DNA of 22,232 bases from a virus. The notes below the pieces were generated by a model. It saw only the letters and a list, made by a program, of their open reading frames with translations, was not told the origin of the DNA and did no database searches. Each line of letters begins with the position of its first letter. The stretch's first letter is position 1. The stretch spans positions 1 through 22,232 of the IMG/VR virus record IMGVR_UViG_3300037804_000543; one strand, 5' to 3'. Below are positions 2,138 through 20,680 of this stretch, piece by piece. A program made the translations under genes and the position numbers.

Positions 2138-2145
2138 TATTACAC
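2138..2145 (-). promoter_or_regulatory. GTGTAATA start-proximal motif (exact copy)
   Basis: Exact GTGTAATA on the minus strand, ending 6 nt before the ATG at 2131 (9 nt between its GTGTA core and the ATG). It occupies most of the gap after the gene ending at 2150. Candidate phage promoter -10 element; see the finding on this motif. Confidence 0.5.
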
Positions 2146-4432: not shown

Positions 4433-6127
4433 TTAATATTTAATTGTTAAATTTTCTTTTGAAAAAGCTTTTTCAAATTTTTCTTTCAAGGATAATTCGC
4501 TTTGGGAGGATTGCTCGTTATTGTTAACGATTTCTTCTCCTGAAGCTTCTACAACGTTTTCCAAAATTTCTTCGGTTACTTCTTCAACCTTAGCTTCTTC
4601 AGCCTTTACTTCTTCAACTGAAGCTACAGCCTCTTCTTGAGGAGTCTTCTTTTCAGCTTCTTCTGAAGTGGCTTGCAATTCAGCAAGACGTTTCTCGACT
4701 TCTTCGTTAATCTTGGCTTCAACAAGTTTGGCTTCTTCAGCTATATTTTCCTTATTTTTGTGGCTCCAAATCTTGCTGATTTTTTCGGAGTACCCAGTAA
4801 AGGCTTCGTCAGAAGAATCTAAATCTTTCAATTCGGAAGCTAAGAGCTCTCGATCCGAATCTTCTAATTGATAAGTGCTATCGAGAACTTCCATTCTTGA
4901 ATCAAAAATTGCAGCGGCTATGGCTGCGTTTTGTTCTGCGCGGATTTCGTCCAGCTCTTTTTTGGTGTCTTCGAATTGAGCCTTTAAGGATTCAAATTCT
5001 TCGTTTACTGCAGAAAGCTTTTCTTCGGTTTCTTTTTTAGCTTCAGCCAAAACTTGAGAATTCTTTTCCGCTTCTTCCTTGTCTGCAAGGAACTGCTCGT
5101 TCTTTTCGAGGATCGCATCATTCACAACTTTCGTTACAGTGGCAATCGCTTCGTCGGAGAATTTTTTGTTTTGCAACTTCTCTCCTAAGAGGTCTTCTAA
5201 AATAGATGTCATTTGTTCTTTATTTTCCATGATATTATTATGGGGTTTATTTTGGTTTATTACAGTCAGTTTTTCGTTTTGTGAAATTTTTTCTTCGTTT
5301 TTATTGATTTTTTTTGATTCTGATTCTTTTTCGAGAGTAGGATTATCTTCTTCGTTATAGACTGCTACTCCTGATACGTCTGCAGCTGGGTTCATGGTTA
5401 AACCGATCCCCAGAGGAAAAACTTCCCCAACGATTAATCTAAAAACTTTTTTCCCATCTTCAGTTTCGCCACTCCCGCCCTCTCCAGACAAATGAAAAGA
5501 TAAACTTTCAAACAATTCTGGATCTTTATCCGCATAAACAACCTCGCAATCTTTTAACATATTGCTAGAACCAACAGCAATAGCATATTCATTGTACCCC
5601 AGCTCCCAACTTGCGGATACAGATTTATATAATGGATTTCCGTCCGATTCTTCACTAGAGCTTTCTAGTAATTCTATAAAATCTGGATTTACTATTCTAT
5701 ATATCACTGCGCTTAACGACAGATTAAAAGGAGATTTTTCCTGGACATAAGTTTGGACAGCTAAAGAATCACCAGTATCTATTAGAGAATTATCCTCTCG
5801 CCTCGTAAAAAAACTACCGACAATATGCCCTACGATTTTTTGCCTTTGGTGCTCAATGTTAACTGGTTTATTTATAAAATAATCTTTAATCTTGCTGGCA
5901 GTCTCCAAGTCTATCCCGTCGCCATTTTTATTGAAGGTGTTGATTACTGCCCCATCAAAGGCCACGCCCATTAGGTCTATATTTTTTTCTAAATCAACAT
6001 GCTTTGGCAAAAGAGGCTTGAGCCCATTTAGAGAAGATTGGCTAATCCTCAAATTATTGTCATCAATCTTCGAAGCTAAAGAAATTTTGGCGCCGAAGGT
6101 CGCAGTATACTTGAAATTATTGTCCAT
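4433..6127 (-). CDS. prohead protease fused to scaffold-like coiled coil
   Basis: A 564-aa two-part protein. Residues 1-260 resemble phage prohead maturation proteases: KPVNIEHQRQKIVGHIVG around His93, then KSVSASWELG with Ser169/Ser171, a plausible His/Ser catalytic pair, ending with GLTMNPAADVSGVAVY, a usual protease-domain end. A low-complexity linker (residues 260-300) leads into a long Glu/Lys/Ala-rich coiled coil (about 310-540) typical of internal scaffolds. The protease cuts scaffold, capsid N-termini and itself during head maturation. An internal ATG at 5230 (Met300, MENKEQMTSILEDLLGEK) could start a separate scaffold product, as in lambda-type nested genes, but no convincing Shine-Dalgarno precedes it. 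The GTGTATCT motif lies 12 nt from the ATG at 6127. Confidence 0.85.
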   Translation of the reverse strand: MDNNFKYTATFGAKISLASKIDDNNLRISQSSLNGLKPLLPKHVDLEKNIDLMGVAFDGAVINTFNKNGDGIDLETASKIKDYFINKPVNIEHQRQKIVGHIVGSFFTRREDNSLIDTGDSLAVQTYVQEKSPFNLSLSAVIYRIVNPDFIELLESSSEESDGNPLYKSVSASWELGYNEYAIAVGSSNMLKDCEVVYADKDPELFESLSFHLSGEGGSGETEDGKKVFRLIVGEVFPLGIGLTMNPAADVSGVAVYNEEDNPTLEKESESKKINKNEEKISQNEKLTVINQNKPHNNIMENKEQMTSILEDLLGEKLQNKKFSDEAIATVTKVVNDAILEKNEQFLADKEEAEKNSQVLAEAKKETEEKLSAVNEEFESLKAQFEDTKKELDEIRAEQNAAIAAAIFDSRMEVLDSTYQLEDSDRELLASELKDLDSSDEAFTGYSEKISKIWSHKNKENIAEEAKLVEAKINEEVEKRLAELQATSEEAEKKTPQEEAVASVEEVKAEEAKVEEVTEEILENVVEASGEEIVNNNEQSSQSELSLKEKFEKAFSKENLTIKY

Positions 6128-6136
6128 TTACATATA

Positions 6137-6144
6137 AGATACAC
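6137..6144 (-). promoter_or_regulatory. GTGTA start-proximal motif before protease gene
   Basis: GTGTATCT on the minus strand, with 12 nt between the GTGTA core and the ATG at 6127, inside the 21-nt gap between the portal and protease genes. Same position and orientation as the other copies. Confidence 0.45.
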
Positions 6145-6148
6145 AAAA

Positions 6149-8122
6149 TTAATAAGAAGCGTGCCAAAGGATGGCTGAAGGATAATGCAAAAGACTGTGC
6201 TCGTTCGAAATCTCAATTACATCCGAAGAGATTTCCAGCTCCCCAATTAAATCGAAATTAACCAAGCAAGCTTCTAGCGATTCTATCCATGAATTTTTAT
6301 TCTTAGAAAGAATTACGCTTTCACACAACTGATCAACAAGGCGTCTTTGCTCTTTAGAGATTCTCTTTATATTTTTTGCTTTTTTAAAAACGGCCACGGA
6401 TTCTTTTTGGAACTTAGATATATCGGTTATAGCTTCTTGGATTTTAGATTGGGAATACTGTCTAGTGTTTTCTTGCTTTATTTCCGAAGTTCCTGCAGGC
6501 CTCCCAGCTTCAGGCTTCACTTGATTATTCTTATTTTGTTCGCCTTGGAGATCTTCATCTACTGGATTACCACCAACCAAAGGATTAAAGAGGCCTTGCT
6601 TTCTGAGTTCCAAAGATTCTTTTTGAGCCTCCTCTAACTCTTCAGCTTCTGGATAGATTCCCGTTTTAATTACGTTAATTCCTTGTTCAGGAGTTAATAC
6701 TCCTAACTCAACCAATCTAGTGGCAACCCTCTGAAGTTGCACTTCGTCCTTAATATCTATTTCCTGAAACTTAGCTACAGGATACTTTCTGAAACCTAAA
6801 TTTTGACAAACCATTTTGATTTGAGGCATTAAGAAATCATTTAAAAAAGACTCTCTAGCCTCCTTAAGTCTCTCTAGGAAAATTTGAGCCTTAACTTGAG
6901 TATTGCTGTATTTCTCCTCCCCGACAACAATATTTTGGAGCCCATCCTTAATGTCTTGATTTACAATTTTATATTTTTCTGGGCCAATAATCTTTTCAAT
7001 ATCTGGGATAATAAATTTTGCTTCAGTAGTGTAATCGGACACTAAAACTCGACCAACGCTTTCATTTTTAAACAAGTCTTGCATAGCCTTGATATTTTTC
7101 CCACTAACTCCACCTTTATCGGGAGTGTTGCCCATTGTTATTAGCAATATAGCATTCTCAATAGTCCTACAAACGGACTGATCGATTTTCTTAAGCTCTA
7201 GCTTCCAGTTAATATCATCTAGAACTGGATAACCAAATGGAATAGCGAAAGGCTCATAGTCTTGTTTTTTATAAAATGAATAAGATAATTTATCAGGATC
7301 GATAATAACATTAACCCCGTCCTTACTAAAATCTCCTTTTTTAATTTGCTGTTTTACTTCGGAAGGTAGCCCCTTGTAAACCTGCTCGTCATACTCGGTC
7401 TTGGGATTAGATAACTTTTCTAAATCGTACTGATTAAGAATTTTTTTATAAACCCCGTTCTTAAAGGAAGTGGCATTTTCCAAAGTAATATCGTATGGAT
7501 TTAATACTATATATTTGATAGGGATTTGATTGGGGCGCAAACCTTTGCCGCTATAAATTTTACTTAATTTTAAAAAGTCCTCGGTAGAAAACTTTCCATC
7601 AACTCTATACAAAAATATATTTCCTGATCTATAGTATTCTCGAAAATATTGATCTTTTAAATTATTTAAATTAATTTTTTCAAACCATTTAGAAACAAAA
7701 TCCCTAGACTTTTTAGTCCCCTCAAATAATTTTAATTTTGAATTAGATAATTCAGACATTATGTCTATAGCATTTCTAAAGATGGAAACATTTGCATAGG
7801 CTTTTTGACAAAGTTCGATAGTGTCTCTAACATTAACCCCGCTTGAGTCTTGATCGAAAGGAAGTAATCCTGAAGAGATATTGCTAAATTTACTAGACTT
7901 AACTTGCCTATGCCTTCTTACGGATCTAGAAACGCTAGCGCCATCTCCAGCGCTAGTTAAAACATTTCTAGTGTAAGACGCGGAAGATTCTACGTAATAG
8001 GGGGATCCAACTAATTCGGGGAGAGCCTCTTCTTCCAGCTTAGTGTTTGCAGCCATTTCGCCTTCGCTTTTTTGAAATTTATTCCAGTAACTAGATTTTT
8101 TAGTATATTTTCTCTTTGCCAT
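6149..8122 (-). CDS. portal protein
   Basis: A 657-aa protein directly downstream of the large terminase and upstream of the protease, the standard portal position. Portal-like features are an early helical segment (FRNAIDIMSELSNSKLKLFEG), a wing region containing FREYYRSGNIFLYRVDGKF, KYIVLNPYDITLEN, a long amphipathic helix before the crown (TQVKAQIFLERLKEARESFL) and a Gln/Glu/Lys/Asn-rich tail. The portal forms the dodecameric ring at one capsid vertex through which DNA is packaged and to which the terminase docks. The N-terminal 20 residues are very basic (MAKRKYTKKSSYWNKFQKSE). The length is at the larger end for portals. The GTGTAACA motif lies 10 nt from the ATG at 8122, and no Shine-Dalgarno is seen. 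Confidence 0.85.
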   Translation of the reverse strand: MAKRKYTKKSSYWNKFQKSEGEMAANTKLEEEALPELVGSPYYVESSASYTRNVLTSAGDGASVSRSVRRHRQVKSSKFSNISSGLLPFDQDSSGVNVRDTIELCQKAYANVSIFRNAIDIMSELSNSKLKLFEGTKKSRDFVSKWFEKINLNNLKDQYFREYYRSGNIFLYRVDGKFSTEDFLKLSKIYSGKGLRPNQIPIKYIVLNPYDITLENATSFKNGVYKKILNQYDLEKLSNPKTEYDEQVYKGLPSEVKQQIKKGDFSKDGVNVIIDPDKLSYSFYKKQDYEPFAIPFGYPVLDDINWKLELKKIDQSVCRTIENAILLITMGNTPDKGGVSGKNIKAMQDLFKNESVGRVLVSDYTTEAKFIIPDIEKIIGPEKYKIVNQDIKDGLQNIVVGEEKYSNTQVKAQIFLERLKEARESFLNDFLMPQIKMVCQNLGFRKYPVAKFQEIDIKDEVQLQRVATRLVELGVLTPEQGINVIKTGIYPEAEELEEAQKESLELRKQGLFNPLVGGNPVDEDLQGEQNKNNQVKPEAGRPAGTSEIKQENTRQYSQSKIQEAITDISKFQKESVAVFKKAKNIKRISKEQRRLVDQLCESVILSKNKNSWIESLEACLVNFDLIGELEISSDVIEISNEHSLLHYPSAILWHASY

Positions 8123-8129
8123 ACTTAAT

Positions 8130-8137
8130 TGTTACAC
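8130..8137 (-). promoter_or_regulatory. GTGTA start-proximal motif before portal gene
   Basis: GTGTAACA on the minus strand, with 10 nt between the GTGTA core and the portal ATG at 8122, in the 52-nt gap after the terminase gene. A TTGACT lies 17 nt upstream of TAACAA, so this copy alone could also be read as a sigma-70 type promoter; the -35 is not shared by the other copies. Confidence 0.5.
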
Positions 8138-8174
8138 ATTCAATTGTTAAAAGTCAACTTTTAATCTTTAATCT

Positions 8175-10058
8175 TTATTTGATAAACATTGGCTCGAAAG
8201 TGTCAAAAGACTCTTCTTTAACTTCTTTCATGTCGTAATAAATTTTAACCATCCAATTTCCCAATACTAAAGCCGAATAAGAGTCCTTTCTAGCCTTGTC
8301 TGGCCCGCTCTGCCTCCTGAGGTTGGCTGGAAGATCGAATGTTTGCGTTCCTTGCGGAGAGGTAGTAATTTGGATTAAAGCGCATTCATTCTTTGTTAAA
8401 TTAATCATATCGCTTTGGTGTTCAACAAAATCGATCATTAAAGCTTTTGAATTTTGCCTATCTTCGCCAACGACAGTCTTTAGAAACTTTAATTTTTGTA
8501 TAGGTATTTTTTTATTTGTTTGTTGCGTGTATGAGTCGTCTACAGCTCTAGATCCAAACCAAATCTTTTTATGGTCAAAATTAGCTTGAAGCAATTCGTT
8601 CGCTCTCCGTATCCATGCTGAGGAAGGCTTTTGTAAATGACAAATAACTTTCTTATCTAAATCATACTCCATTTTCGCGGCCATTAATTCTTTTTGATAT
8701 TTCTCAACATTATTAAAATCAGCAGTCAGGGTTCTAAGCTTAAGGTTGGCTTTTTTAAAAATTTCGCTTTCGTTGGCTGCATTTAAAAACTGAACCGCCC
8801 CGTTGTAATCTCCAATAACTGCAACGACATTAAAATTAGTTAATAGGTAGTGAAAATAAAAAATATGCTCTTTCATCCTTGTCCCCGCTAAAGCATAACT
8901 ATGAACTAAGGTCCCGCATTTTTTATCATCATTTAATTTTAACACTTGAATAGCAAAATCATCGCTATTCTCAGTTTCCGCCCAACTTGGGTCGAAAGCA
9001 ATAATATACTTAGAGTCTTCGTCTCCTTTAACCTCGACACTAGGTGAATCTCCATCGCTAACTGTACACATAGCCATCCTGGAGGTCTTAAAATACCCAC
9101 TGCTATCGTCTGTGAATTTTGCGCCAAACTCTCTCTCGAATTGACTTTGGCTCATTGAAGAGACCGCTTGGTCAATCAAGTTTTGATCGTATAACCTTTT
9201 TGGGGCACAATCATAAGAAAACTGCAAAATGTTCCGAGTCGCATTTGACCTACCGTCTGAACCTGCATAATTAGGGTTAAAAATTAAATCCTCAAAATTT
9301 TGATATAATTTATATAAATATTCAAATTTATAAGACGCAGAAGATAAAGCGACTAATTTATTATTAGGCCATTTATACCTACCCCCTTCTTCCATTTCTC
9401 CTTTTTCAATTAATTTAGTTTCTATATTATACAAATCCTCCCGCTCGGTAGGGTTTTCTACTACAGAAAGAAAGGGAAGTATAACTTCATTATAAATTCT
9501 TTCTGGCATTAATAAAAACTCATCTATAATAATTCTATGAAACCTAAAACCTCTAAGCTTAGATCCGTCCCCCAAAGGCAAAGCTCTAATTCTACTTTCT
9601 CCAATTTCCATTAACCACTCATCATTATTTTTAGATTTCTTTGTGATACATTGCGCTAAAAGTCTAGCTTCGGGCTTAGCAGCAATGTCTTCGATTTTTC
9701 TAAATATTTGCTTCGATTGCCTAAAAGACGCTGCAAGAATTCCGATCTCTACGCCCTGATTTAATATGGCGTCTAAAAACGCAAAAATTCCCGTAGAATA
9801 AGATTTTGACATTCCTCGACTCCAAACCCCTAAAGTGTAATCCGTATTAAACATAGCCTTTACAGCCATGTGTTGAAATGGAAATAAACGAACCCCCGCG
9901 ATTAAGTCTACAGCAAATGTTATGTTTTCCCTTAAGAATTTATACAGAAGCACCTTCGCCTCCTCCTCCTCTAAGAATCCTTTTTTCGACAGGATTTCTT
10001 TGTTTATATTCTGAAAAGATCTAACTCTCTCGCTCTGCTTTCCTATTTCCCAGGCCAT
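8175..10058 (-). CDS. terL: terminase large subunit
   Basis: A 627-aa DNA-packaging motor with both domains visible. The ATPase has a deviant Walker A, SRGMSKS (residues 80-86, Lys85), a Walker B, IIIDE (176-180, Asp179/Glu180), and a coupling-motif candidate, SSAS (239-242). The RNase H-like nuclease has acidic residues in IIAFDP (Asp356), VIGDYNG (Asp417) and KARKDSYSA (Asp592). It docks on the portal, translocates DNA into the head and cuts the concatemer. It overlaps the preceding small gene by 16 bp, so translational coupling is likely. It is followed by the portal gene. No family subtype (headful or cos) can be assigned from sequence alone. Confidence 0.95.
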   Translation of the reverse strand: MAWEIGKQSERVRSFQNINKEILSKKGFLEEEEAKVLLYKFLRENITFAVDLIAGVRLFPFQHMAVKAMFNTDYTLGVWSRGMSKSYSTGIFAFLDAILNQGVEIGILAASFRQSKQIFRKIEDIAAKPEARLLAQCITKKSKNNDEWLMEIGESRIRALPLGDGSKLRGFRFHRIIIDEFLLMPERIYNEVILPFLSVVENPTEREDLYNIETKLIEKGEMEEGGRYKWPNNKLVALSSASYKFEYLYKLYQNFEDLIFNPNYAGSDGRSNATRNILQFSYDCAPKRLYDQNLIDQAVSSMSQSQFEREFGAKFTDDSSGYFKTSRMAMCTVSDGDSPSVEVKGDEDSKYIIAFDPSWAETENSDDFAIQVLKLNDDKKCGTLVHSYALAGTRMKEHIFYFHYLLTNFNVVAVIGDYNGAVQFLNAANESEIFKKANLKLRTLTADFNNVEKYQKELMAAKMEYDLDKKVICHLQKPSSAWIRRANELLQANFDHKKIWFGSRAVDDSYTQQTNKKIPIQKLKFLKTVVGEDRQNSKALMIDFVEHQSDMINLTKNECALIQITTSPQGTQTFDLPANLRRQSGPDKARKDSYSALVLGNWMVKIYYDMKEVKEESFDTFEPMFIK

Positions 10059-10279: not shown

Positions 10280-11240
10280 TGCTGTGAAACTTATCAAAAT
10301 GATATTGCAGATCACACCCCCATATTTTATCTCCATAGGTCAACAACTTGGGGATTATCTCTTCGGAATTCTCTCTATTTCCTGTAAATAAAAATTGACA
10401 AGTTTTAGGGTATTTATGTATTATCTCTCTTATGTTGTGATGAATATAAGGTATGTTGGAAGAATAGTGATTATTTGATTCTATATCTTTCATAGAACAT
10501 TCGACAACCACATACAAAAAACTTTCAAATTGTTTTGCTCTATCAAGTTCTTTTTTGAACCTTTCTATGCCACCCCCAAAAGTTCCCCTAAAATCTGATT
10601 CGCTTTTCCTGTCCACATAAGTATAGGAATACAAATCCCCGCCTACTGTATAATCCCCAAAGTCTAACTTTTTATTTTTTGTCTTTTTGAATTCTAAAGG
10701 ATTTTGCTCTCTCGTATCTACGAAGATAGCTACCTCCTTCATTTTTTCGTTTGGTTTAAAAAAATTTTTAGGAATAGGATTTGGGTAAAGAGGCTTGCAG
10801 TTAATTTTCTCACAGGCATCAGTATAACTCCCAAAGAAATATTTGTACATATCTATAGATGGTAAATTTAACGAAGCAAGCTCTATAGATGACGGGGCGA
10901 ATTCTAATTTTTTTTCTTCAACCCTTCTCTCCAAAAGCTCCAAGATATATTTGGATACTATGTCCTTAGGTTGATGCAAGCACCACAACCTTAAATTATC
11001 AAAATTTACAAAGTCCCTAAGGAAATAATCATTTTTATTTTTAAAGGGGATGGGGGATTGGTCCCATAAATCTATTCTTGGAAAAAAATTACAATAATAC
11101 TCCGCTATAGAAGTCTTGTGTTTTTTTAAATGTCCATGTAGCGATCTTTCACTGCGAAACGATTGCTCGCAAATTTTACAATCAAGAACCTTCGGGGCAC
11201 TCGGGTTTTTCTCCATCAACAACTGCTCTACCTTTGTCAT
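10248..11240 (-). CDS. C2H2 zinc finger-ERCC4 (XPF-type) nuclease
   Basis: A 330-aa protein with two recognisable parts. Residues 21-41 form a perfect C2H2 finger, C-x2-C-x12-H-x3-H (Cys21, Cys24, His37, His41). A middle region without motif follows. Residues 171-250 form an ERCC4/XPF-type nuclease core: VDTREQ (Asp175), FGDYT (Asp196) and VDRKSESD (Asp210, Arg211, Lys212, Asp216), the ERKxxxD active-site motif with Asp for Glu. This family cuts branched or flapped DNA. In a phage it may resolve packaging or replication junctions; its position two genes upstream of terL favours that, but this is inference. It overlaps the upstream dehydrogenase by 59 bp if the ATG at 11240 is used; an ATG at 11216 is an alternative, just before the finger. 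Confidence 0.8.
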   Translation of the reverse strand: MTKVEQLLMEKNPSAPKVLDCKICEQSFRSERSLHGHLKKHKTSIAEYYCNFFPRIDLWDQSPIPFKNKNDYFLRDFVNFDNLRLWCLHQPKDIVSKYILELLERRVEEKKLEFAPSSIELASLNLPSIDMYKYFFGSYTDACEKINCKPLYPNPIPKNFFKPNEKMKEVAIFVDTREQNPLEFKKTKNKKLDFGDYTVGGDLYSYTYVDRKSESDFRGTFGGGIERFKKELDRAKQFESFLYVVVECSMKDIESNNHYSSNIPYIHHNIREIIHKYPKTCQFLFTGNRENSEEIIPKLLTYGDKIWGCDLQYHFDKFHSNDSKGSEQNQ

Positions 11241-12054
11241 TTTGCCAGTCTTTTTCTGGGCGATCTACTAAATTATTTCTTTTTACCGCCGCATCTATAA
11301 TATAAGAATTTAATCCTATTTTTTCAATATCTTTTAATAAAGCGCTAGAATCCTTGGGAAAGCAAGTTCCCCCAAATCCATAACTCCCGTCTGGCCCAGG
11401 CACAAAAGAGTGCCCAGAGCCTATTCTGGCGTCTTGTGTTGATGCTTCCCGCGCCTTATCAAAGTCTATGCCTTTGCGAGCACAATACTCATGAATTTCA
11501 TTAAAGAATGAAACCTTCACGCTTAAGAAAACATTTTTAATATATTTCACCAATTCAGCTTCCGCTGGCAAACATCTCGTATATTCTTTCGTATATATAT
11601 TTCCATCCCCTTTGTTATAAACGTCCTCCAGTATATTTTTGAATTTTTCTTCAATCCTATCTGAATGTGTTCCTATGATCCAATGCTTACAGGAAACAAA
11701 ATCCTGCCTCCAATTGCTTTCCGTTAAAAACTCAGGCATAAAAGAAACATCTAAGGAATCGGAAACTCCAGGAATAACTGTTGACCTAATTACAATATCT
11801 TTATTTGGATCTATATTTCTAATTGATTGTATAGATTCTTTGACTATGCCAAGGTGGCATTCTCCGTCATTATCCATTGGAGTGGGAACCGATATGAAAA
11901 TGATCTCGCAAGAATTAACAAAGTCTTCGTAATTCAAATTCAACGGCTCTCGTTTTTGGGAATCTATATCCCACATTAATACTTCGACGAATGGACGAAA
12001 TACGTCCATTGCCTGCCCAACAAATCCATTCCCAACAACCCCTATAGTTTTCAT
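11182..12054 (-). CDS. UDP-glucose/GDP-mannose dehydrogenase family, short form
   Basis: A 290-aa NAD-dependent nucleotide-sugar dehydrogenase. The Rossmann motif GNGFVG is at residues 8-13, SVPTPMDNDG at 55-64, and the catalytic-loop Cys231 lies within YGFGGTCFPKD. These enzymes oxidise C6 of UDP-glucose, GDP-mannose or related sugars to the uronic acid. Family members are usually about 390-450 aa; this one ends soon after the central helix and lacks the C-terminal nucleotide-sugar domain. The last dozen or so residues are encoded in the overlap with the nuclease gene and may not be ancestral. The substrate cannot be told. It probably works with the sugar genes at 17310-19622. The GTGTAATA motif lies 10 nt before the ATG at 12054; no Shine-Dalgarno is seen. 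Confidence 0.85.
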   Translation of the reverse strand: MKTIGVVGNGFVGQAMDVFRPFVEVLMWDIDSQKREPLNLNYEDFVNSCEIIFISVPTPMDNDGECHLGIVKESIQSIRNIDPNKDIVIRSTVIPGVSDSLDVSFMPEFLTESNWRQDFVSCKHWIIGTHSDRIEEKFKNILEDVYNKGDGNIYTKEYTRCLPAEAELVKYIKNVFLSVKVSFFNEIHEYCARKGIDFDKAREASTQDARIGSGHSFVPGPDGSYGFGGTCFPKDSSALLKDIEKIGLNSYIIDAAVKRNNLVDRPEKDWQNDKGRAVVDGEKPECPEGS

Positions 12055-12061
12055 ATAGGAG

Positions 12062-12069
12062 TATTACAC
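12062..12069 (-). promoter_or_regulatory. GTGTAATA start-proximal motif (exact copy)
   Basis: Exact GTGTAATA on the minus strand, with 10 nt between the GTGTA core and the ATG at 12054, in the 17-nt gap after the gene ending at 12072. It would place a promoter for the packaging and sugar genes inside the long minus-strand cluster. Confidence 0.5.
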
Positions 12070-12071
12070 AA

Positions 12072-13121
12072 TTAAATTACATCCCCTCGAGAAACCCCTA
12101 AAACTCTAGCTTTCCAAGAGGGCATGCTTTCGAGCCGATCCGCCTCTTCTTCAACCAAAATTTTTTGTTTCTCAGCTATCATTACCATTCTCTCTCTTTC
12201 TTCCTCGTTTTGAAAAGCTTGAACAAGAGCTAGTATAGAAGCGTTATCATTTTTTTTTGAAGCGACTCTTTTCGCTCTATCTCCATTTAGTCTATTAATT
12301 AAAGACTCCATCCTTTTTTCGCATTGATTATACTCTTCGCTTTTGGTCTTCAATAACTCTGCCAACCTAACAGTTAATTCTTGCTGTTGCTCCGCGTCGT
12401 TAAACATTGAATTTAACTTTTCCATATGCTTGGAAATATTTTTTAGATTAATGTAATCCACGCAGACATTAATGTAAAGATTCACTTCATCCGCAGTCAA
12501 ATCAGATTTATCCCAAGTAGCTCTCACGAATTCAGCTTCAAATAAATTCCTATCTTCTTGATCGGAATATGTGTGGATAATTGATAGAAATCTTGGGGAC
12601 TGTAAAAATAACTCTAAAGCTTCAACGCTCTGCTTATCAAATAGAGAAATTTTATTTGGATTTATCCCTTCGCCAGTAAACTTATTAATAATTTTTATAA
12701 TATTCTCTGCGCCCTTCGGAGACTGATATGTTTTCCCCAACGCAGATTCTGAACTTTTAATGGATTCGGGGGAATATTTTTCTAAATATTTAAATACAGC
12801 TTTTTGTTCTACGCCTAAATTTACTACGTTATTGTCTGGAAATACTAGCTGCGCAATCTGAAAGCTACTCATTCCTTGATTCGCGTATTCAACTATAAAA
12901 TCTTTTTGTTCGGGAGAGAAGCTAATGCTATCTTTCTTTTTCTTTTTGGTAGTTTTATAGTTTAATCCTTTTTGGGATAAATAACTCCGAACCGAGCGGC
13001 CTTCTTTAGTTCGGCCATCTAAACTATTGTCATTAAAAGTTAGTCGAGTAAGTTGAATTAAATCAGGGATATCATGATAATTAGAATCAATGAAAGATTT
13101 TTGTTCTTCTGAAAGTTCCAT
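12072..13121 (-). CDS. tandem-HTH DNA-binding protein; candidate small terminase
   Basis: A 349-aa protein with two tandem N-terminal repeats. SEEQKSFI...QLTRLTF.DN...RSVRSYL (residues 4-50) and SPEQKDFI...QIAQLVFPDN...KAVFKYL (about 69-116) align over their whole length and look like helix-turn-helix modules. A Lys run (six in a row) separates them. The C-terminal half (about 220-335) is helical, Glu/Gln/Arg-rich and likely coiled coil, suited to oligomerisation. Small terminase subunits combine N-terminal HTH DNA binding with a helical oligomerisation region, and no other small-subunit candidate is visible upstream of terL, so that role is a reasonable inference; a transcription regulator is an alternative. 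The start is 2 nt after the stop of the sigma-like gene, so they are probably coupled. A run of nine T near 12250 lies inside the gene. Confidence 0.7.
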   Translation of the reverse strand: MELSEEQKSFIDSNYHDIPDLIQLTRLTFNDNSLDGRTKEGRSVRSYLSQKGLNYKTTKKKKKDSISFSPEQKDFIVEYANQGMSSFQIAQLVFPDNNVVNLGVEQKAVFKYLEKYSPESIKSSESALGKTYQSPKGAENIIKIINKFTGEGINPNKISLFDKQSVEALELFLQSPRFLSIIHTYSDQEDRNLFEAEFVRATWDKSDLTADEVNLYINVCVDYINLKNISKHMEKLNSMFNDAEQQQELTVRLAELLKTKSEEYNQCEKRMESLINRLNGDRAKRVASKKNDNASILALVQAFQNEEERERMVMIAEKQKILVEEEADRLESMPSWKARVLGVSRGDVI

Positions 13122-13123
13122 GA

Positions 13124-13843
13124 TTAAACTATATCTTCCTTTTGAATAATTAAAAGCACTTTTTCTTTAATTTTCTTTTTGATGTTTTTTATTTGTTTGT
13201 ATCCAGCCTTCCTTCCCTTTTCATTGCTGATGAGGTTTAATTTTTTTGCGATAGCTTTATCGTCATCTTTTTCAATGAACAGCATCAAAAATATTTCGTA
13301 GTCTTTCGGGGAAAGCTTTTTTTTTAAAACGGATTTTAATTTAGATATTGAATGTTCGAGGTCGAATCCATTATTATGATAATTTATCGCTCCCGAGTTC
13401 TCGTGCTTCTCTAATGCTACAGGCATCTTAATGTTAAAAGCGGGTTTTTTTTGCTTTTCCCATTTTTTATATAAGGGACATTCCGAGTTTTGTCTTCCGC
13501 TTTTTGTGAAAGAGCAAAATCCAGCATTATTAACGTTATCTAAATCAGCACCATTTTCTGGATTGCCTTCATTGAAGGGGCATCCAGTACATGGCCTAGC
13601 AAAATTAAAGTAAACATTCCTGAGAATATTTTTTATTTGATTGCTAATTACTCTATTAATCCAAGGTTTTAGCGATCGAGATTGATCCCACTGATCCCAC
13701 TTGTTGTATATATGGGCGTGGATTATTTGGCAAACATCGTCGAAGTCGATCCACTGTATAGAGGAAAGCATCCATTTCGATTTTCTTTTCCTAAGCTCTT
13801 GGTTAATTTCTTCATATTTATCTTCGTAAGAAAAGTTGGGCAT
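13124..13843 (-). CDS. sigma-70-like factor with four-cysteine insert
   Basis: A 239-aa protein built like a two-domain (ECF-sized) sigma factor. Residues 5-76 resemble region 2: WIDFDDVCQIIHAHIYNKW, then PWINRVISNQIKNILRN. Residues 175-235 resemble region 4: LSPKDYEIFLMLFIEKDDDKAIAKKL with a basic HTH tail. Between them is an insert with Cys85-x2-Cys88, Cys110 and Cys122, a likely zinc site and not usual in sigma factors. The protein would direct host RNA polymerase to phage promoters, probably late ones. It is the best candidate for reading the GTGTAATA motif found before many genes here. It lies between the zinc-ribbon gene (22 nt) and the tandem-HTH gene (2 nt). The sigma call is from pattern, not alignment, so moderate. 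Confidence 0.65.
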   Translation of the reverse strand: MPNFSYEDKYEEINQELRKRKSKWMLSSIQWIDFDDVCQIIHAHIYNKWDQWDQSRSLKPWINRVISNQIKNILRNVYFNFARPCTGCPFNEGNPENGADLDNVNNAGFCSFTKSGRQNSECPLYKKWEKQKKPAFNIKMPVALEKHENSGAINYHNNGFDLEHSISKLKSVLKKKLSPKDYEIFLMLFIEKDDDKAIAKKLNLISNEKGRKAGYKQIKNIKKKIKEKVLLIIQKEDIV

Positions 13844-13865: not shown

Positions 13866-14174
13866 TTATTTATTTTCCTTAGGTTCTATTTTCTTAAGCT
13901 GCCCTCGGTTTCTTGAAATTTGATTTGGATCTGAATCCTCCTTCATAATGTCCGCAATAGTAGTCTTCCTGCATCCTTCAAAATTAATATCAATATCAAC
14001 ATCTAATTTCTCTAGATTAGGTATTTCATCAATTACAACTTCTTCGGGAGAAGGCTCTGAAGATTTATTCCCGAGGGTTGAGCCGATTGAAAGAGATGAT
14101 CCACAATTGGGGCAAAACTTTGCGACAGCAACTTTGTTTTCTATTTTTGAACCACAGTTTGAGCAATATTTCAT
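13866..14174 (-). CDS. zinc-ribbon protein (102 aa)
   Basis: A 102-aa protein with an N-terminal zinc ribbon: Cys4-x2-Cys7 (YCSNCGSK) and Cys21-x2-Cys24 (FCPNCGSS). The rest is acidic and probably disordered, with a basic last 15 residues. Such ribbons bind zinc and usually mediate protein or nucleic acid contacts. It is next to the sigma-like gene, which also has a Cys-rich insert, so a transcription role is possible but not shown. A TACTATAAGG stretch just before the ATG could serve as promoter -10 or weak ribosome site. Confidence 0.75.
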   Translation of the reverse strand: MKYCSNCGSKIENKVAVAKFCPNCGSSLSIGSTLGNKSSEPSPEEVVIDEIPNLEKLDVDIDINFEGCRKTTIADIMKEDSDPNQISRNRGQLKKIEPKENK

Positions 14175-14217: not shown

Positions 14218-14817
14218 TTATTTTATTAAATATCCAGCAATAGCTCTACACGCATCTTTCATGAAACACACATCTTTTTGAGATTTCTCTTCCCAATCCT
14301 TATCTAAAATAGACTCAGCTTTAATGTAGTCTATTCCAATGATGCCTACGATATTGTTTAGCTTTGTGTAAATTGGTATCAAACAAGCCTTATGTACTCC
14401 TTTATTCAAAAATAATTGTCTGGACGCCGAATGCTTGATGTCGTCGATTTGGTTTATTATCGTTCCATTTTCTTTCATTATCCTCTCTATAAATAATGAA
14501 TATATAGAGCACCTTAGATCTTTTACATGCTCGCATTCCGTAGACACTCCTTCAGAAACTATTTCGTAAGTACAACTCATTCTTTGCCTAGGTAAGCCTG
14601 AAAAATATTTTCCACCATTATGAAATTGATAGATGTAAACCCTGTCAGAATCTGTATTTTTCTGTAATTTATCTAATATTTTATAAATATTCCTAGCAGC
14701 ATCAACGCTATCAAATACAGGGCACGCTTCCTTATTGGATTTTTTTGAGATATAAACCGTCAAAAGTGTTGTTGTCGCGCCGATTATAGCGGCGATAATT
14801 GAGGACCAATCAAACAT
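14218..14817 (-). CDS. membrane-anchored GAF-like domain protein (199 aa)
   Basis: A 199-aa protein with one N-terminal membrane segment (residues 5-24, SSIIAAIIGATTTLLTVYIS) followed by a basic stretch, then a GAF-like sensor domain (about 35-195). GAF-like features are YIYQFHNGGKYFSGLPRQR, LFLNKGVHKACLIPIY and IVGIIGIDYIK, the last matching the usual final strand. GAF domains bind small ligands or mediate signalling; no effector domain is attached. The membrane anchor would put it at the inner membrane facing the cytoplasm. It starts 1 nt after the phoH stop, so coupled to phoH. The role in infection is unknown. Confidence 0.7.
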   Translation of the reverse strand: MFDWSSIIAAIIGATTTLLTVYISKKSNKEACPVFDSVDAARNIYKILDKLQKNTDSDRVYIYQFHNGGKYFSGLPRQRMSCTYEIVSEGVSTECEHVKDLRCSIYSLFIERIMKENGTIINQIDDIKHSASRQLFLNKGVHKACLIPIYTKLNNIVGIIGIDYIKAESILDKDWEEKSQKDVCFMKDACRAIAGYLIK

Positions 14818-16495: not shown

Positions 16496-16515
16496 TATGT
16501 AGGGTGGGAGGTATA

Positions 16516-16866
16516 ATGTCTCATAGTAAAATATTTAGTCATTTGGATGAGATAGAGGCTGTAGTTAATGCTCATGGGGTAGGAGCGAAACGAGCTTTCC
16601 TGAACAACGAAGATACCCCAACCAAATTAACCCAATTCGCTTACAGTAAGTTGCAGCCAGGAGAAATCTGTGGTTTGCATACTCATGTAACAATGGAAGA
16701 GTATTTTTTCTTTTTAAGTGGCACCGCAAAATATTTTGTAGGAGAAGAAGTATATAATGTAGAAAAGGGTTCTTTTTTAAGAATACCCGCGAATACTTAC
16801 CACGAGTTAAGAAACAATAATACTGAAGAGCTAGAAATAATATACTTCGGAATTGCAACAGACTAA
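16516..16866 (+). CDS. single-domain cupin (116 aa)
   Basis: A small cupin_2-type beta barrel. Motif 1 is GLHTHVTMEEYFFFLSG (His55, His57, Glu62, Gly69); motif 2 is PANTYHELRN with His96. Metal-binding residues are all present, so a metal site is likely. Members include sugar isomerases, dioxygenases and sensors, so the substrate is unknown. The start is the ATG at 16516 because GGGAGGT stands 3 nt before it; the frame also opens at a GTG at 16504 inside that ribosome site, which is rejected. This is one of the few genes here with a clear Shine-Dalgarno. TATAAT (about 16491-16496) nearby may be a -10. Confidence 0.8.
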   Translation: MSHSKIFSHLDEIEAVVNAHGVGAKRAFLNNEDTPTKLTQFAYSKLQPGEICGLHTHVTMEEYFFFLSGTAKYFVGEEVYNVEKGSFLRIPANTYHELRNNNTEELEIIYFGIATD

Positions 16867-16872
16867 TCTATA

Positions 16873-17019
16873 ATGAGGGATTTGGTCAAAGTTTTCACCG
16901 AAATGTTTTGGGGTGAGGAAATCGGAAATATTGGTTTTATTAAATTCTTGGTGACTTTTGTTTGTATATTTGTTACTATTAAATTTTTCATGTATATAAC
17001 TTCTGACAAAAAGAAATAA
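16873..17019 (+). CDS. small single-pass membrane protein (48 aa)
   Basis: A 48-aa frame 6 nt after the cupin stop. Residues 1-17 are amphipathic and acidic (MRDLVKVFTEMFWGEEIGN), residues 20-42 are one strongly hydrophobic helix (FIKFLVTFVCIFVTIKFFMY), and the end is charged (TSDKKK), which fits a single-pass membrane protein with a cytoplasmic basic tail. No family recognised; holin-like or host-membrane functions are possible, not shown. Real-gene support is the tight spacing, the clean membrane pattern and the absence of another frame in the gap. Confidence 0.55.
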   Translation: MRDLVKVFTEMFWGEEIGNIGFIKFLVTFVCIFVTIKFFMYITSDKKK

Positions 17020-17053
17020 AACTTTTACAATAGTATCTCATTAGGGTATTCTT

Positions 17054-17061
17054 GTGTAATA
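17054..17061 (+). promoter_or_regulatory. GTGTAATA start-proximal motif (exact copy)
   Basis: Exact GTGTAATA on the plus strand, with 12 nt between the GTGTA core and the ATG at 17071, in a 51-nt non-coding gap. No -35-like hexamer at the usual distance. Confidence 0.5.
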
Positions 17062-17070
17062 TTAGTTACC

Positions 17071-17262
17071 ATGATCGAATTTTATAACGTAAGAAAAAAA
17101 GAGAAAGTTTCAATCTCAAAAGATAAGGTTGAAAAAAAAGAATACAAGCGCACTTTAAAGAGTGGTAAAGAATCTATAAGATATGCTTTTGCAGCTGTAG
17201 ATGAAGATGGAACAAAGCTGACTAAGTTCTGCAGTAAAGCTGATTACGACTCGCTTAATTAA
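17071..17262 (+). CDS. small basic protein (63 aa)
   Basis: A 63-aa Lys-rich protein starting MIEFYNVRKKEKVSISKDKV, with YAFAAVDEDGTKLTKFCSKA in the second half. It looks like a compact beta-rich fold found as short stand-alone proteins in phages and bacteria (the LTKF-SK-ADYD ending is reminiscent), but I cannot name the family or its function. It has its own GTGTAATA motif 12 nt upstream and is followed by another one before the epimerase gene, so it is probably transcribed alone or as a leader of the sugar genes. Confidence 0.7.
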   Translation: MIEFYNVRKKEKVSISKDKVEKKEYKRTLKSGKESIRYAFAAVDEDGTKLTKFCSKADYDSLN

Positions 17263-17294
17263 ATTAAGTAATATTCTTTTTTTGTTTATAGGTT

Positions 17295-17302
17295 GTGTAA
17301 TA
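17295..17302 (+). promoter_or_regulatory. GTGTAATA start-proximal motif (exact copy)
   Basis: Exact GTGTAATA on the plus strand, with 10 nt between the GTGTA core and the ATG at 17310. It would start transcription of the sugar cluster 17310-19158. Confidence 0.5.
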
Positions 17303-17309
17303 CCTGTAA

Positions 17310-18197
17310 ATGGGTGGAAAAAGAATTTTAGTAACGGGAGGGTCTGGGTTCGTAGGGACTCATTTAATAAAAAATTTATTAAAAGAGCACCCCAAGAATA
17401 AAATAATTTCTATCGACGACTATTCCTCGGGAACAAAGGATAATAACCTTCAAGATCCAAGGGTCAAATATTACAATATTGGCACTTACGAATTAGAGCT
17501 TTTAGATAAGCATGCATATTTTGAGCCTAACGAAATTTATCATTTTGGAGAGTTCTCCAGAGTTGTAACATCTTTCGATAAATATGATCAATGTTGGAAG
17601 TCTAATATAATTGGTACCAACAAAGTGCTGCAATACGCAGTAAAACACAAAGCTAAATTTTTTTATAGCGCCTCTAGTAGCGGATTGGGTAATGGCGGAG
17701 AAGATGAATCCTTGTCTCCTTATGCTTGGATGAAATCTAAAAATGTCGAATTAATTAAAAATTATAATAAATGGTTTGGCCTACAATATAATATCTATTA
17801 TTTTTATAATGTTTATGGGCCTGGACAAATTGAATCAGGTGAATATGCGACTGTCATAGGGATTTTCGAAAGATTGTATAGAGAAAATAAACCTTTATCT
17901 GTGGTTAGCCCTGGGACTCAAACTAGGGATTTCACTCATATCCAAGATATTATTGAAGGGATCCAATTAGGGTCTAATGTTGAATCGAACGATGAATATT
18001 GGTTGGGAACGGGAAAACAAACCTCAATATTAGAAATATGCAAAACTTTTAAACGGGATTATGTTTTTATTCCCGAACGGATTGGAGAGCGGGTCGCTGG
18101 CGAGGCTCCAGTTGAAGCAACTATGGAAAAATTAAATTGGCAACCAAACAAACAACTATCAAATTATATAGAAGAAATAATTAATCATGAAAACTGA
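17310..18197 (+). CDS. NAD-dependent sugar epimerase/dehydratase (extended SDR)
   Basis: A 295-aa extended short-chain dehydrogenase. The NAD-binding GGSGFVG is at residues 10-16, an acidic residue after strand 2 (SIDDYSSG) favours NAD over NADP, the catalytic Tyr138-x3-Lys142 (YAWMK) has Ser120/Ser122 upstream (YSASSSG), and NVYGPGQ (167-173) and RDFTHIQDI are sugar-binding segments of UDP-glucose 4-epimerases and NDP-sugar dehydratases. It interconverts or dehydrates a nucleotide sugar in the cytoplasm. Length is slightly short for the family (310-350). It overlaps the ManC-type cupin by 11 bp, so the two are coupled and likely act in one pathway, with the dehydrogenase at 11182. Exact substrate unknown. 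Confidence 0.88.
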   Translation: MGGKRILVTGGSGFVGTHLIKNLLKEHPKNKIISIDDYSSGTKDNNLQDPRVKYYNIGTYELELLDKHAYFEPNEIYHFGEFSRVVTSFDKYDQCWKSNIIGTNKVLQYAVKHKAKFFYSASSSGLGNGGEDESLSPYAWMKSKNVELIKNYNKWFGLQYNIYYFYNVYGPGQIESGEYATVIGIFERLYRENKPLSVVSPGTQTRDFTHIQDIIEGIQLGSNVESNDEYWLGTGKQTSILEICKTFKRDYVFIPERIGERVAGEAPVEATMEKLNWQPNKQLSNYIEEIINHEN

Positions 18198-18546
18198 AGA
18201 GATAGACGGTCCAATTAGGCCTTGGGGACATTACGAAATCCTTTTGGATGAAAGTTATTGTAAAGTTAAACGCATTGTTGTTAAGCCTGAGTGCAGACTA
18301 AGCTACCAGTATCATTACAAAAGAAAAGAGGCGTGGACTGTTGTTCAAGGAGTAGCCACAGTAACTGTTAATGGCGTGATGAAAGATTATTTTCCAGGGG
18401 AAACAGTTCTAATAGGTTTTCAAGATAAACATCGCATGGCTAATAATAGTAAATTAGAAAATATGATTTTAATTGAAGTTCAAACAGGTTCGTATTTTGG
18501 AGAAGACGATATCGTTAGAATAGAAGATGATTTTAATAGAGAATAA
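18187..18546 (+). CDS. stand-alone ManC-type cupin (mannose-6-phosphate isomerase type II domain)
   Basis: A 119-aa protein matching the C-terminal isomerase domain of bifunctional ManC/AlgA enzymes over nearly its full length: RPWGHYEIL (11-19), KVKRIVVKPECRLSYQYHYK with metal ligands Gln41, His43 and Glu48, His82 in DKHRMAN, and the diagnostic end IEVQTGSYFGEDDIVRIEDD. That domain interconverts fructose-6-phosphate and mannose-6-phosphate on the way to GDP-mannose. The GDP-mannose pyrophosphorylase half is absent here; such stand-alone cupins also occur in phage and capsule clusters. It starts inside the epimerase gene (11-bp overlap). Confidence 0.88.
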   Translation: MKTEEIDGPIRPWGHYEILLDESYCKVKRIVVKPECRLSYQYHYKRKEAWTVVQGVATVTVNGVMKDYFPGETVLIGFQDKHRMANNSKLENMILIEVQTGSYFGEDDIVRIEDDFNRE

Positions 18547-18552
18547 AAGTTC

Positions 18553-19158
18553 ATGCGAGGACTCTTGAAGATATCATATTTTATTTTGTTTTTCCTTTCG
18601 GGGTGCAACAATTTATCCAAAAATAAAAAGGATAGCCTTCTGGTTAATGATCTTGGGCCTGAAATAATCAAAAATACTGGGGCCGCTTTATTAGGTATGC
18701 CTAGCATCGCATACTGCTATCCTGGGCTAACAGATAAGGACGCTCGAGAAAGTCTCTCAGAACCATTAAAACGCGCGGGGAACGCGATATTTCCAGACAC
18801 ACACTACATTCGTATAAAATATCAATCATTTGTCACGTTTAGTGATTGGTTTCAGAAAATAACCTCTCAACTAAATAACGAAGAAATAGGAGATGGCTAC
18901 GATTGCGACAATTATTCTTTTTTATATAAATCTTTATTATCGGTTAGCTCTTATAAAAATCAAAACTTGCGAGAGGTATTAGTTGGGGTAATCTACGTCA
19001 ACCAAAAACATTCTTTTGGAGGCATTCCTTCGGGACAATTCTACCATGCATTAAATATAATTTGTACTGAGTCGGGTTGGTATGTATACGAGCCTCAAAC
19101 AGGAGAATTTGATAAAATAGAAAATTACCCAAATAACATTTTGTGGTTTATTTTTTAA
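18553..19158 (+). CDS. lipoprotein with Cys/His/Glu hydrolase-like domain
   Basis: A 201-aa predicted lipoprotein: hydrophobic N-terminus and lipobox LSGC (Cys18). Residues 110-185 carry a pattern of papain/transglutaminase-like enzymes: GYDCDNYSFLYKSL with Cys118, GQFYHALNII with His165, and YVYEPQTGEF with Glu180. The EPQT segment is typical of the MOA-lectin-related cysteine protease group, which is my best guess; catalytic activity is not shown. It would sit in the periplasm attached to a membrane and might cut or cross-link protein or peptidoglycan, or block other phages. It follows the cupin by 6 nt with no clear ribosome site and lies among sugar genes. Confidence 0.65.
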   Translation: MRGLLKISYFILFFLSGCNNLSKNKKDSLLVNDLGPEIIKNTGAALLGMPSIAYCYPGLTDKDARESLSEPLKRAGNAIFPDTHYIRIKYQSFVTFSDWFQKITSQLNNEEIGDGYDCDNYSFLYKSLLSVSSYKNQNLREVLVGVIYVNQKHSFGGIPSGQFYHALNIICTESGWYVYEPQTGEFDKIENYPNNILWFIF

Positions 19159-19167
19159 AATATACTG

Positions 19168-19182
19168 TATTATATAGTATAA
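19168..19182 (+). promoter_or_regulatory. AT-rich promoter-like 15-mer (copy 2)
   Basis: TATTATATAGTATAA, identical to 2574-2588 (minus). Here it runs into the ATG at 19182 and lies within TATACT...AGTATA arms (19161-19181). If a promoter, the message would be leaderless or the true start would lie further in; an operator is an alternative. Confidence 0.35.
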
Positions 19183-19622
19183 TGAAATTTTTATTAGAAA
19201 AAGACAGGGCGACTAAAGATATCGTTGCGGTGAGTGGATATTTTGACCCTTTACATATTGGGCATTTAGAATATTTAGAAATGGCAAGTAAATTAGGTAA
19301 TTATTTATGTGTTATAGTTAATAATGATTACCAATGTAGGCTAAAAAAAGGGAAATCTTTCATGCCTGAGCAAGATAGATTGAAAATTATTCAATCTTTA
19401 AAGATGGTTGACTACGCCATGATCTCCGTGGATCAAGACCGCACAGTTTGTATGAGCCTTGAGTTTTTGAAGCCGAAAATTTTTGCCAATGGGGGGGATA
19501 GGCATAATCAAGAAATTCCTGAAGCGGAAACCTGTCGAAGATTTGATATTCAAATAGTTGACGGGCTGGGAAATAAAATACGATCTTCTTCTTCTCTGAC
19601 TGGGCTAAAAGAAAAAACTTAA
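19182..19622 (+). CDS. HIGH-motif nucleotidyltransferase (RfaE/TagD-like)
   Basis: A 146-aa cytidylyltransferase-superfamily enzyme: SGYFDPLHIGH with the nucleotide-binding HIGH (residues 25-28), FANGGDR (102-107) and the closing KIRSSSSL (132-139), equivalent to the ISSTxxR motif. NGGDR plus this ending resembles heptose-1-phosphate adenylyltransferases (HldE C-terminal type) and glycerol-3-phosphate cytidylyltransferases. It would activate a sugar or polyol phosphate with ATP or CTP for glycan assembly. The start is the ATG at 19182; the frame extends upstream to 19143 but that would lie inside the lipoprotein gene. It ends 2 nt from the convergent gene at 19625, with no terminator visible between them. 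Confidence 0.85.
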   Translation: MKFLLEKDRATKDIVAVSGYFDPLHIGHLEYLEMASKLGNYLCVIVNNDYQCRLKKGKSFMPEQDRLKIIQSLKMVDYAMISVDQDRTVCMSLEFLKPKIFANGGDRHNQEIPEAETCRRFDIQIVDGLGNKIRSSSSLTGLKEKT

Positions 19623-19624
19623 CG

Positions 19625-20668
19625 TCAGTCGAGCACGGGAGATACAATCTTATTGTATCCAGCATTAACGCTATCTGCTCGAACCACGAAAAAGGATTCT
19701 CCTGACTGAAATACGTGATCGTCGATTTGCCCCGTATTTAAGTTGATCCAGTTGTTTACATCGTGATAATATGATACCCATGCCGATCCAGACCAAGCTA
19801 AAATATAATCTGCCTGAGAGCTATTTTGAGATTTATTCCAGTTGGAGCTAACATCTATAAGATCGCTTATTTTTGATTCTACTGGAAATGGATTAGACAT
19901 TAAAAATTTACCTTCTGACCCAGGAAGATAAGACTGAACAAACTGCGGGACATAACCAGAAAAACTTAGAGTTAAAGGAGCAGTGCCTTTTCTTTGGTAA
20001 ATTAATCCTTCATCAGGATAAATGATCGTTCCTCCTTGGTCAGATCTAGTTCCAAATGTTTGCCATTTGTCGTTATGATAAAAATAAGTCTTCCATCCAT
20101 ATGTAGTCCATATTAAAATATTATCACCAATACTTGGCGTTCCTTTCTCTCCATGAAAATCTTCTCCAGTACCAAACATTCCAGCCAAAGTGTTAGCTTT
20201 GATTATGTCAATAGAATCATATGCTTGAAAATACTGGCTAACTAGATTCGCTTCTAGGCCTATTGTAACATCGTTTTCTACATTCGCTAGAACCAAAAAC
20301 ACTAAGCCGTTATATTCTTCTTGCCCATCTCGCAACCTTAAAAAATGAGGTTCCTGAGCGAGAACGTCATCTTCGTAAGATTCCTCTTCGTACTGACCAA
20401 TGAGATCGCTCAATGTTAATGTTGATCCTATGATTGTTTCTATGACGCCCGAGTAAACAGCTTCTTGATTATAACCGCTCGAAAGAAATGTATAACTAGG
20501 TGTCGAATCTTCTGCTGCCTCCAATATATCAATATTAGTGACTCCTATAGCTTGCGTGGCAGCCTCGCTTCCCCAAAAATATTCAGCGCTTAGATCTTTC
20601 AGTTGAAAACTGCCTAAAGTCGCAGCTATTATCATAAGTGCAAAATATAATTTGAATCGCATACTCAT
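19625..20668 (-). CDS. secreted TIGR02597-like protein
   Basis: A 347-aa secreted protein with an N-terminal signal peptide (MSMRFKLYFALMIIAATLGS). Two internal repeats, about residues 182-228 and 287-332, share DxILxW-x5-W-x2-Y-(F/Y)-H...W...G(E/L)...R. The intermediate phrase GLIYQRKGTAPLTLSFSGYV and SNPFPV match my memory of the TIGR02597 family, which I associate with Verrucomicrobiota exported proteins of unknown function. In a phage it is unusual and probably acquired from the host. Start: the ATG at 20668 or 20662; a GTG at 20680 coincides with the GTGTATAC motif and is rejected. The gene converges on the nucleotidyltransferase. Confidence 0.7.
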   Translation of the reverse strand: MSMRFKLYFALMIIAATLGSFQLKDLSAEYFWGSEAATQAIGVTNIDILEAAEDSTPSYTFLSSGYNQEAVYSGVIETIIGSTLTLSDLIGQYEEESYEDDVLAQEPHFLRLRDGQEEYNGLVFLVLANVENDVTIGLEANLVSQYFQAYDSIDIIKANTLAGMFGTGEDFHGEKGTPSIGDNILIWTTYGWKTYFYHNDKWQTFGTRSDQGGTIIYPDEGLIYQRKGTAPLTLSFSGYVPQFVQSYLPGSEGKFLMSNPFPVESKISDLIDVSSNWNKSQNSSQADYILAWSGSAWVSYYHDVNNWINLNTGQIDDHVFQSGESFFVVRADSVNAGYNKIVSPVLD

Positions 20669-20672
20669 TATA

Positions 20673-20680
20673 GTATACAC
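20673..20680 (-). promoter_or_regulatory. GTGTA motif before the secreted protein
   Basis: GTGTATAC on the minus strand; the core is 7 nt from the ATG at 20668 and 13 nt from the ATG at 20662. If other spacings (9-12 nt) are a guide, the true start may be 20662. Confidence 0.45.

Follow-up and report, generated by a model that had tools for sequence, protein, structure and literature searches.

The window, a 22,232-nt stretch of viral DNA (IMG/VR record IMGVR_UViG_3300037804_000543, positions 1 to 22,232), encodes a 239-aa sigma-like protein with a four-cysteine insert, which is probably a late sigma factor that directs the host RNA polymerase to promoters with the single element GTGTAW, with the aid of a metal knuckle and a zinc-ribbon partner. 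The computed evidence comprises two sigma domains, four invariant cysteines, a motif placed before late genes with no clear -35 element, and a conserved gene order. The features are collected in Table 1.

Table 1. Features of the window and additional sigma genes of its relatives
Feature	Position	Strand	Basis or remark
Sigma factor with four-Cys insert, 239 aa, ATG start	13124..13843	-	ORF list, Pfam, homologue alignment, AlphaFold2
Sigma2 domain, aa 3-82	13598..13837	-	Pfam Sigma70_r2 at aa 30-75; superposition on ECF sigma2 5uxx
Cys4 insert, aa 84-122 (C85, C88, C110, C122), right after region 2.4	13478..13594	-	predicted metal knuckle, invariant Cys
Sigma4-like HTH domain, aa 164-236, invariant GYKQIKN.K	13136..13354	-	superposition on SigW sigma4 5wuq; invariant columns
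Acidic/hydrophobic C-terminal tail of sigma, KEDIV	13127..13141	-	conserved in 64/81 representatives
Zinc-ribbon protein, 102 aa, candidate sigma partner	13866..14174	-	conserved upstream neighbour
349-aa protein, N-terminal HTH-like repeats (by eye) and long coiled coil	12072..13121	-	conserved directly downstream of sigma
GTGTAA, 9 nt before ATG 17310	17295..17300	+	promoter-like motif
GTGTAA, 11 nt before ATG 17071	17054..17059	+	motif
GTGTAA, 9 nt before ATG of 11182-12054	12064..12069	-	motif
GTGTAA, 9 nt before portal gene (6149-8122)	8132..8137	-	kept in 26/26 non-redundant relatives
GTGTAT, 11 nt before prohead protease/scaffold-type gene (4433-6127)	6139..6144	-	motif
GTGTAA, 8 nt before ATG of 1703-2131	2140..2145	-	motif
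GTGTAT, 6 nt before ATG at 20668	20675..20680	-	motif
Extra sigma, ECF-like, 176 aa	G001, L085:1741-2268		
Extra sigma, RpoD/RpoS-like, 353 aa	G006, L086:1379-2437		
Extra sigma, RpoD/RpoS-like, 272 aa	G009 (contig of L045), L087:1817-2632		
Extra sigma, 197 aa, ends NTLDFI	G009 (contig of L045), L088:1258-1851		

Domain architecture of the sigma factor and its four-cysteine linker

The protein matches the Pfam family Sigma70_r2 with 26.9 bits (cut-off 24), as do 38 of 39 members of its own family (E <= 0.01); region 4 was detected by profile search in just two of these 39 sequences. An AlphaFold2 model built with the 39 members (mean pLDDT 79.3, pTM 0.42) is confident at both ends and not in the insert. 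In the model, residues 3-82 superpose on the sigma2 domain of an ECF sigma factor (5uxx) with 2.3 A over 76 residues, and residues 164-236 on sigma4 of SigW (5wuq) with 1.9 A over 63 residues. All 50 chains listed among the structural matches are sigma factors, the Foldseek E-values being weak (best 0.014), and the matches listed from the BFVD viral structures are mostly phage sigmas. Comparison with the sequences of solved structures gave none at E <= 0.001, only weak matches (best 0.1). The preliminary description had recognized ends resembling regions 2 and 4 and called for a structural comparison; the Pfam score and the two superpositions agree with it, and the model does resemble these regions.

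The NCBIfam model TIGR02937 (sigma70-ECF) spans residues 15-223 (E 2.7e-9), although its score of 36.9 bits remains below the curated cut-off of 42.9. Because this cut-off was missed and region 4 is visible by sequence in so few members, we do not file the protein as an ECF member and call it, from its sequence and its predicted fold, a sigma70-superfamily factor with an apparently ECF-like architecture. Neither sigma1.1 nor sigma3 was found in it (profile search with the sigma3 family; the AlphaFold2 model superposes on sigma2 and sigma4).

Cysteines occur at positions 38, 85, 88, 110 and 122. The last four were reported earlier as an insert between the two ends, and this feature is borne out by the alignment, in which they are invariant, initially in 81/81 sequences and then in 156/156 homologues from uncultured viral contigs (the 156 correspond to 81 representatives at 95% identity), while Cys38 is not conserved. 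Pro84, Gln118 and Trp128, the last just outside the insert, are likewise invariant, and the loop from Cys88 to Cys110 is longer in some homologues than in others. Such invariance of four cysteines despite a loop that is not constant in length is the signature of a metal site; since the insert is modelled at low confidence (pLDDT 53-64 over residues 81-110), it is from the cysteines alone that this site is predicted. The module is most likely a metal knuckle in the sigma2-sigma4 linker, with zinc as the likeliest metal. A literature search by title revealed no obvious zinc-binding phage sigma.

The C-terminal tail takes the form of EIDFL, EVDFL, KDIIL and similar variants in the relatives, reminiscent of SLDFLYE in T4 gp55 and TLDFLL in gp33; tails of this type in the two T4 proteins bind the sliding clamp (PMC2988020). 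In G009 the Cys-containing sigma has no tail, and another sigma encoded there ends with NTLDFI. As neither a gp45-type nor a DnaN-type clamp was found in the long relatives, the contigs of which are incomplete, coupling of the tail to a clamp remains a lead. A match to a "clamp loader" PHROG in G001 was dropped as support: the protein combines AAA and winged-helix domains and by eye is closer to RuvB.

Two other interpretations of this protein were considered. It might be a non-sigma HTH DNA-binding phage protein that resembles sigma2 by chance, as the weak best Foldseek E-value, the pTM of 0.42 and the barely visible region 4 would allow, but Sigma70_r2 was matched independently by nearly every family member, both domains superpose on their sigma counterparts, only sigmas are present among the structural matches listed, and phage sigmas dominate the BFVD matches, which makes such an accident extremely improbable. 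Alternatively, the protein could be a late sigma whose Cys4 cluster is not structural zinc but an Fe-S or redox/metal-responsive sensor that gates its activity. A CxxC pair and two more cysteines can hold Fe-S clusters, and the insert has this possible arrangement with absolutely invariant cysteines; on the other hand, no Fe-S family was matched among the members of the sigma family, the candidate partner next door carries a zinc ribbon, and redox gating of a lytic late programme would have no obvious reason. We consider such a sensor quite unlikely and prefer structural zinc.

GTGTAW sites upstream of late genes

In the window the total number of GTGTAW sites is at chance level (15 vs 11.2 expected), but seven of the 15 are located 5-16 nt before start codons, where 0.11 would be expected (p ~7e-12). 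The extended form GTGTAAYA occurs five times vs 0.67 expected, a count reached by no shuffle, and GTGTAA ranks first among 150 6-mers of the same composition with respect to placement 5-16 nt before starts. The best form of the motif, GTGTAATA, is found in the 40 nt before gene starts of all loci 34 times vs 0.2 expected. The -10-only motif that had been described earlier as conserved is therefore real at 17295-17300 and common to the whole sigma-carrying group. Upstream enrichment is absent in four unrelated phages (Microcystis MaeS, Lactococcus P1048, Bacillus Slash and T4). The T4-type late promoter TATAAATA was rejected as the late motif, since it is not placed at gene starts, whereas GTGTAW is.

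Among non-redundant loci, GTGTAW precedes the portal gene in 26/26 cases (1.5 expected), PhoH in 25/32 (1.8 expected) and the prohead protease/scaffold-type gene in 6/10 (0.3 expected). It is essentially absent before the genes of the sigma (0/46), the 349-aa protein (0/36), the nuclease (0/38) and the terminase (1/41), as expected inside operons. Genes bearing the motif encode portal, tail fibre, tail spike, prohead protease and structural proteins, as well as PhoH. By comparison, just one site, before a 97-aa ORF, is present between 34 and 88 kb in the 105-kb relative G001, where DNA ligase and rIIA/rIIB are encoded, and there are hardly any in the block of the 162-kb relative G009 with the genes for DNA polymerase III alpha, primase, DnaB and a UvsX-like recombinase. 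GTGTAW is a family-wide, -10-only promoter-like signal of late genes.

Among 121 non-redundant sites, a spacing of 8-11 nt from the ATG is the most frequent, other sites being 13-39 nt away, and the information is confined to GTGTAW and the immediately following bases. No -35 element stands out convincingly above the shift-shuffled null in these sites; the best positional k-mer, ACTT at -28 (z 5.19 vs 5.16 for the 95% level of the null), was not accepted. Repeats that precede the portal genes of a single clade probably account for its signal. At sites distant from the ATG, the proportion of purines rises abruptly 9 nt downstream of the motif (81% vs ~50% just before), which points to a transcription start site. 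A Shine-Dalgarno-like string was found in 1/52 genes with the motif at <=12 nt, where the motif occupies that space, and in 10/38 genes with the motif further away. From the distance to the ATG, the absent -35 element, the purine step and the rarity of Shine-Dalgarno strings, near-leaderless mRNAs are predicted. Inside genes GTGTAW is depleted two-fold with respect to synonymous-codon shuffles (178 vs 355 expected), both in sense (67 vs 117) and in antisense orientation (111 vs 238), while in control phages it is not (155 vs 166; sense 63 vs 62, antisense 92 vs 104). Depletion on the antisense strand is predicted for a promoter signal at the DNA level and not for a translation signal.

Pairing of the sigma factor with the motif and comparison with known systems

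Each of the 22 family contigs searched encodes the sigma with the Cys insert, and no other sigma gene was found in all of them; additional sigmas, of different types, were detected in only three of the 22, which are mostly fragments. In these three relatives the additional sigmas may share its role or take it over. The earlier hypothesis that this protein is the candidate reader of the motif gains support from the group-wide occurrence of the motif together with this sole ubiquitous sigma, and we infer that the two are paired. Covariation between motif variants and sigma residues was considered as a further link and had to be abandoned, since both the motif and the sigma are invariant.

In the mechanism that we propose, sigma2 and sigma4 would bind the core of the host RNA polymerase, and sigma2 would read the one-element promoter, best in the form given above, and melt the DNA. 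Transcription would start ~9 nt downstream of GTGTAW, at the ATG of virion genes (portal, prohead protease/scaffold, tail fibres) or 1-3 nt before it, which would yield near-leaderless late mRNAs. With the four cysteines as predicted ligands, the sigma2-sigma4 linker would wrap around a metal ion, for which zinc is the likeliest candidate, and the knuckle, at the position of sigma3, probably either stabilizes the complex with the promoter or touches the upstream GT of the motif, replacing the -35 contact. Sigma3 of other sigmas contacts the extended -10 element; because the Cys4 module follows region 2.4, in the place of sigma3, we favour contact with the GT as the role of the insert. The adjacent zinc-ribbon protein is a likely partner or co-activator. 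A sigma factor with a sigma4 domain would be expected to use a -35 box, and the lack of such a box speaks against the late-sigma interpretation. A more elaborate scheme, in which the knuckle is a substitute sigma3 that reads GT and makes a -35 element unnecessary, the zinc-ribbon protein is an obligate co-activator, the tail is tethered to the replication clamp and the late mRNAs are leaderless, is conceivable but doubtful as a whole.

The motif itself might be explained differently. If GTGTAW were a real late promoter read by a host sigma or by a second phage sigma, the Cys-containing sigma would serve other promoters or another step; some relatives indeed encode extra sigmas, two of them RpoD/RpoS-like, and no covariation ties the Cys-containing sigma to the motif, both being invariant. 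However, the extra sigmas belong to different types and are confined to three of 22 contigs (mostly fragments), as opposed to the Cys-containing sigma in all of them; ordinary RpoD-like sigmas read pairs of -35 and -10 elements, yet a -35 element is not clearly seen; and there is a precedent of a phage sigma for single-element promoters containing TGTA. We therefore regard a different reader as unlikely. If, instead, GTGTAW acted near start codons as a signal in translation or in the mRNA leader, its sharp spacing of 8-11 nt to the ATG in genes mostly without Shine-Dalgarno strings would be accounted for, but an RNA signal should not be depleted in genes equally strongly on the antisense strand, operon-internal genes (sigma, 349-aa protein, nuclease and terminase) lack the motif in 160/161 non-redundant cases, sites are also found 13-39 nt away, and the purine step is fixed relative to the motif and not to the ATG. 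A role in translation is therefore very improbable, and a promoter read by the Cys-containing sigma remains our preferred explanation.

The best precedent for such a sigma is gp36 of phiEco32 (Kuravirus), an ECF-like phage sigma that acts with the host core enzyme at late promoters (PMC8948821, PMC4331800). These promoters have tAATGTAtA as their sole element, and transcription begins 6-8 bp downstream of it (PMC8948821). If the pairing inferred here is correct, both systems comprise a phage-encoded ECF-like sigma and a single-element late promoter with TGTA, although the element is GTGTAW in the group of phages related to the window. The two proteins have no detectable sequence similarity (hmmsearch, -1.2 bits), and gp36 has zero cysteines and hence no insert, in contrast to the Cys4 module of the window sigma. 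The single-element promoter of gp36 has been explained by its lack of region 4 (PMC8948821), while the window sigma possesses this region, as judged from the 1.9 A superposition over 63 residues.

Like the proposed late sigma of the window, T4 gp55 is a small phage sigma for late genes whose promoters consist of the -10 element alone; it lacks a Cys insert, however, and its late motif, TATAAATA, differs from GTGTAW. The T4 late system uses a sliding clamp and gp33 as a sigma4 mimic. In the window sigma, by contrast, sigma4 is part of the same chain, and a clamp was not found in the long relatives. Gp47 of phage 7-11 is likewise a late sigma, it has region 4, and its promoter core contains GTAA, but that promoter is bipartite, GTAAtg-(16)-aCTA, and no second element was found for GTGTAW. 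Bacterial ECF sigmas (SigW, SigH, RpoE) have the same sigma2-linker-sigma4 order and provide the best structural matches; however, they use promoters with -35 and -10 elements, unlike GTGTAW with no clear -35 (assuming that it is the promoter of the window sigma), and their linker is devoid of a Cys4 module, while the window sigma has one and scores below the NCBI ECF cut-off. On the best reading, the window sigma is functionally like phiEco32 gp36 and T4 gp55 and distinct from them in sequence. A literature search found no phage sigma with GTGTAA late promoters.

With a known late promoter, expression classes can be read directly from metagenomic contigs of these phages and translation starts become predictable. 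Should the pairing be true, this would be a sigma family where a conserved Cys4 linker module accompanies the loss of the need for a -35 element, a case relevant to promoter opening by sigma factors without a -35 anchor, and it would provide an example of near-leaderless late mRNAs in a phage.

Distribution of the family and gene neighbourhood

The phages that carry the Cys-insert sigma are numerous, uncultured and for the most part marine: among IMG/VR viral contigs, 271 confirmed candidates were found with the window protein as the query and 386 with a distant member. A tblastn search of ~50,700 isolate-phage records (from which records near to the window are possibly excluded) with the window sigma and one distant relative gave no match at E <= 1. 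Matches to GTDB MAG contigs are labelled Halobacteriovorax, Flavobacteriales and another bacterium; as these labels conflict, no host is claimed.

In the relatives the genes form a fixed block, PhoH - zinc ribbon - sigma - 349-aa protein - nuclease - terminase - portal. The preliminary description had pointed to the adjacent zinc-ribbon ORF 13866-14174, and its position proved to be conserved: by pattern, a zinc-ribbon gene is directly upstream of the sigma gene in at least 68/70 non-redundant loci; of the two loci that seem to deviate, L028 does carry the ribbon gene, at a shorter spacing. On the other side of the zinc ribbon, a GAF-domain-like protein (14218-14817, minus strand) was found by tblastn in only 7/83 relatives.

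The 349-aa gene abuts or overlaps the stop codon of the sigma gene, and it is downstream of sigma in nearly all relatives. No family was matched by its product, for which AF2/Foldseek yields coiled-coil matches only; a small terminase or a transcription cofactor may be considered as candidate roles. Two HTH-like repeats were recognized by eye in the N-terminal part of the protein, whose last residues (..RGDVI) are similar to the tail of the sigma in the window clade.

Between the terminase stop and the portal promoter (8123-8175, minus strand) we found short AAAGTNAACTTT-type palindromic or direct repeats, present at the same place in L001, L006, L014, L018, L028 and L082, all of one clade; they could be an activator site, a terminator or a packaging site. 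In the window, the 349-aa gene and an ERCC4-like nuclease gene are separated by an inserted sugar-nucleotide dehydrogenase-like gene (by eye; 11182-12054, minus strand), for which a separate GTGTAA site is present at 12064-12069. On the plus strand, the region 16504-19622 contains, by eye, two cupin-like genes, one nucleotide-sugar epimerase-like gene and one nucleotidyltransferase-like gene, a cluster located partly behind GTGTAA sites and putatively involved in phage-borne surface-sugar or glycan metabolism.
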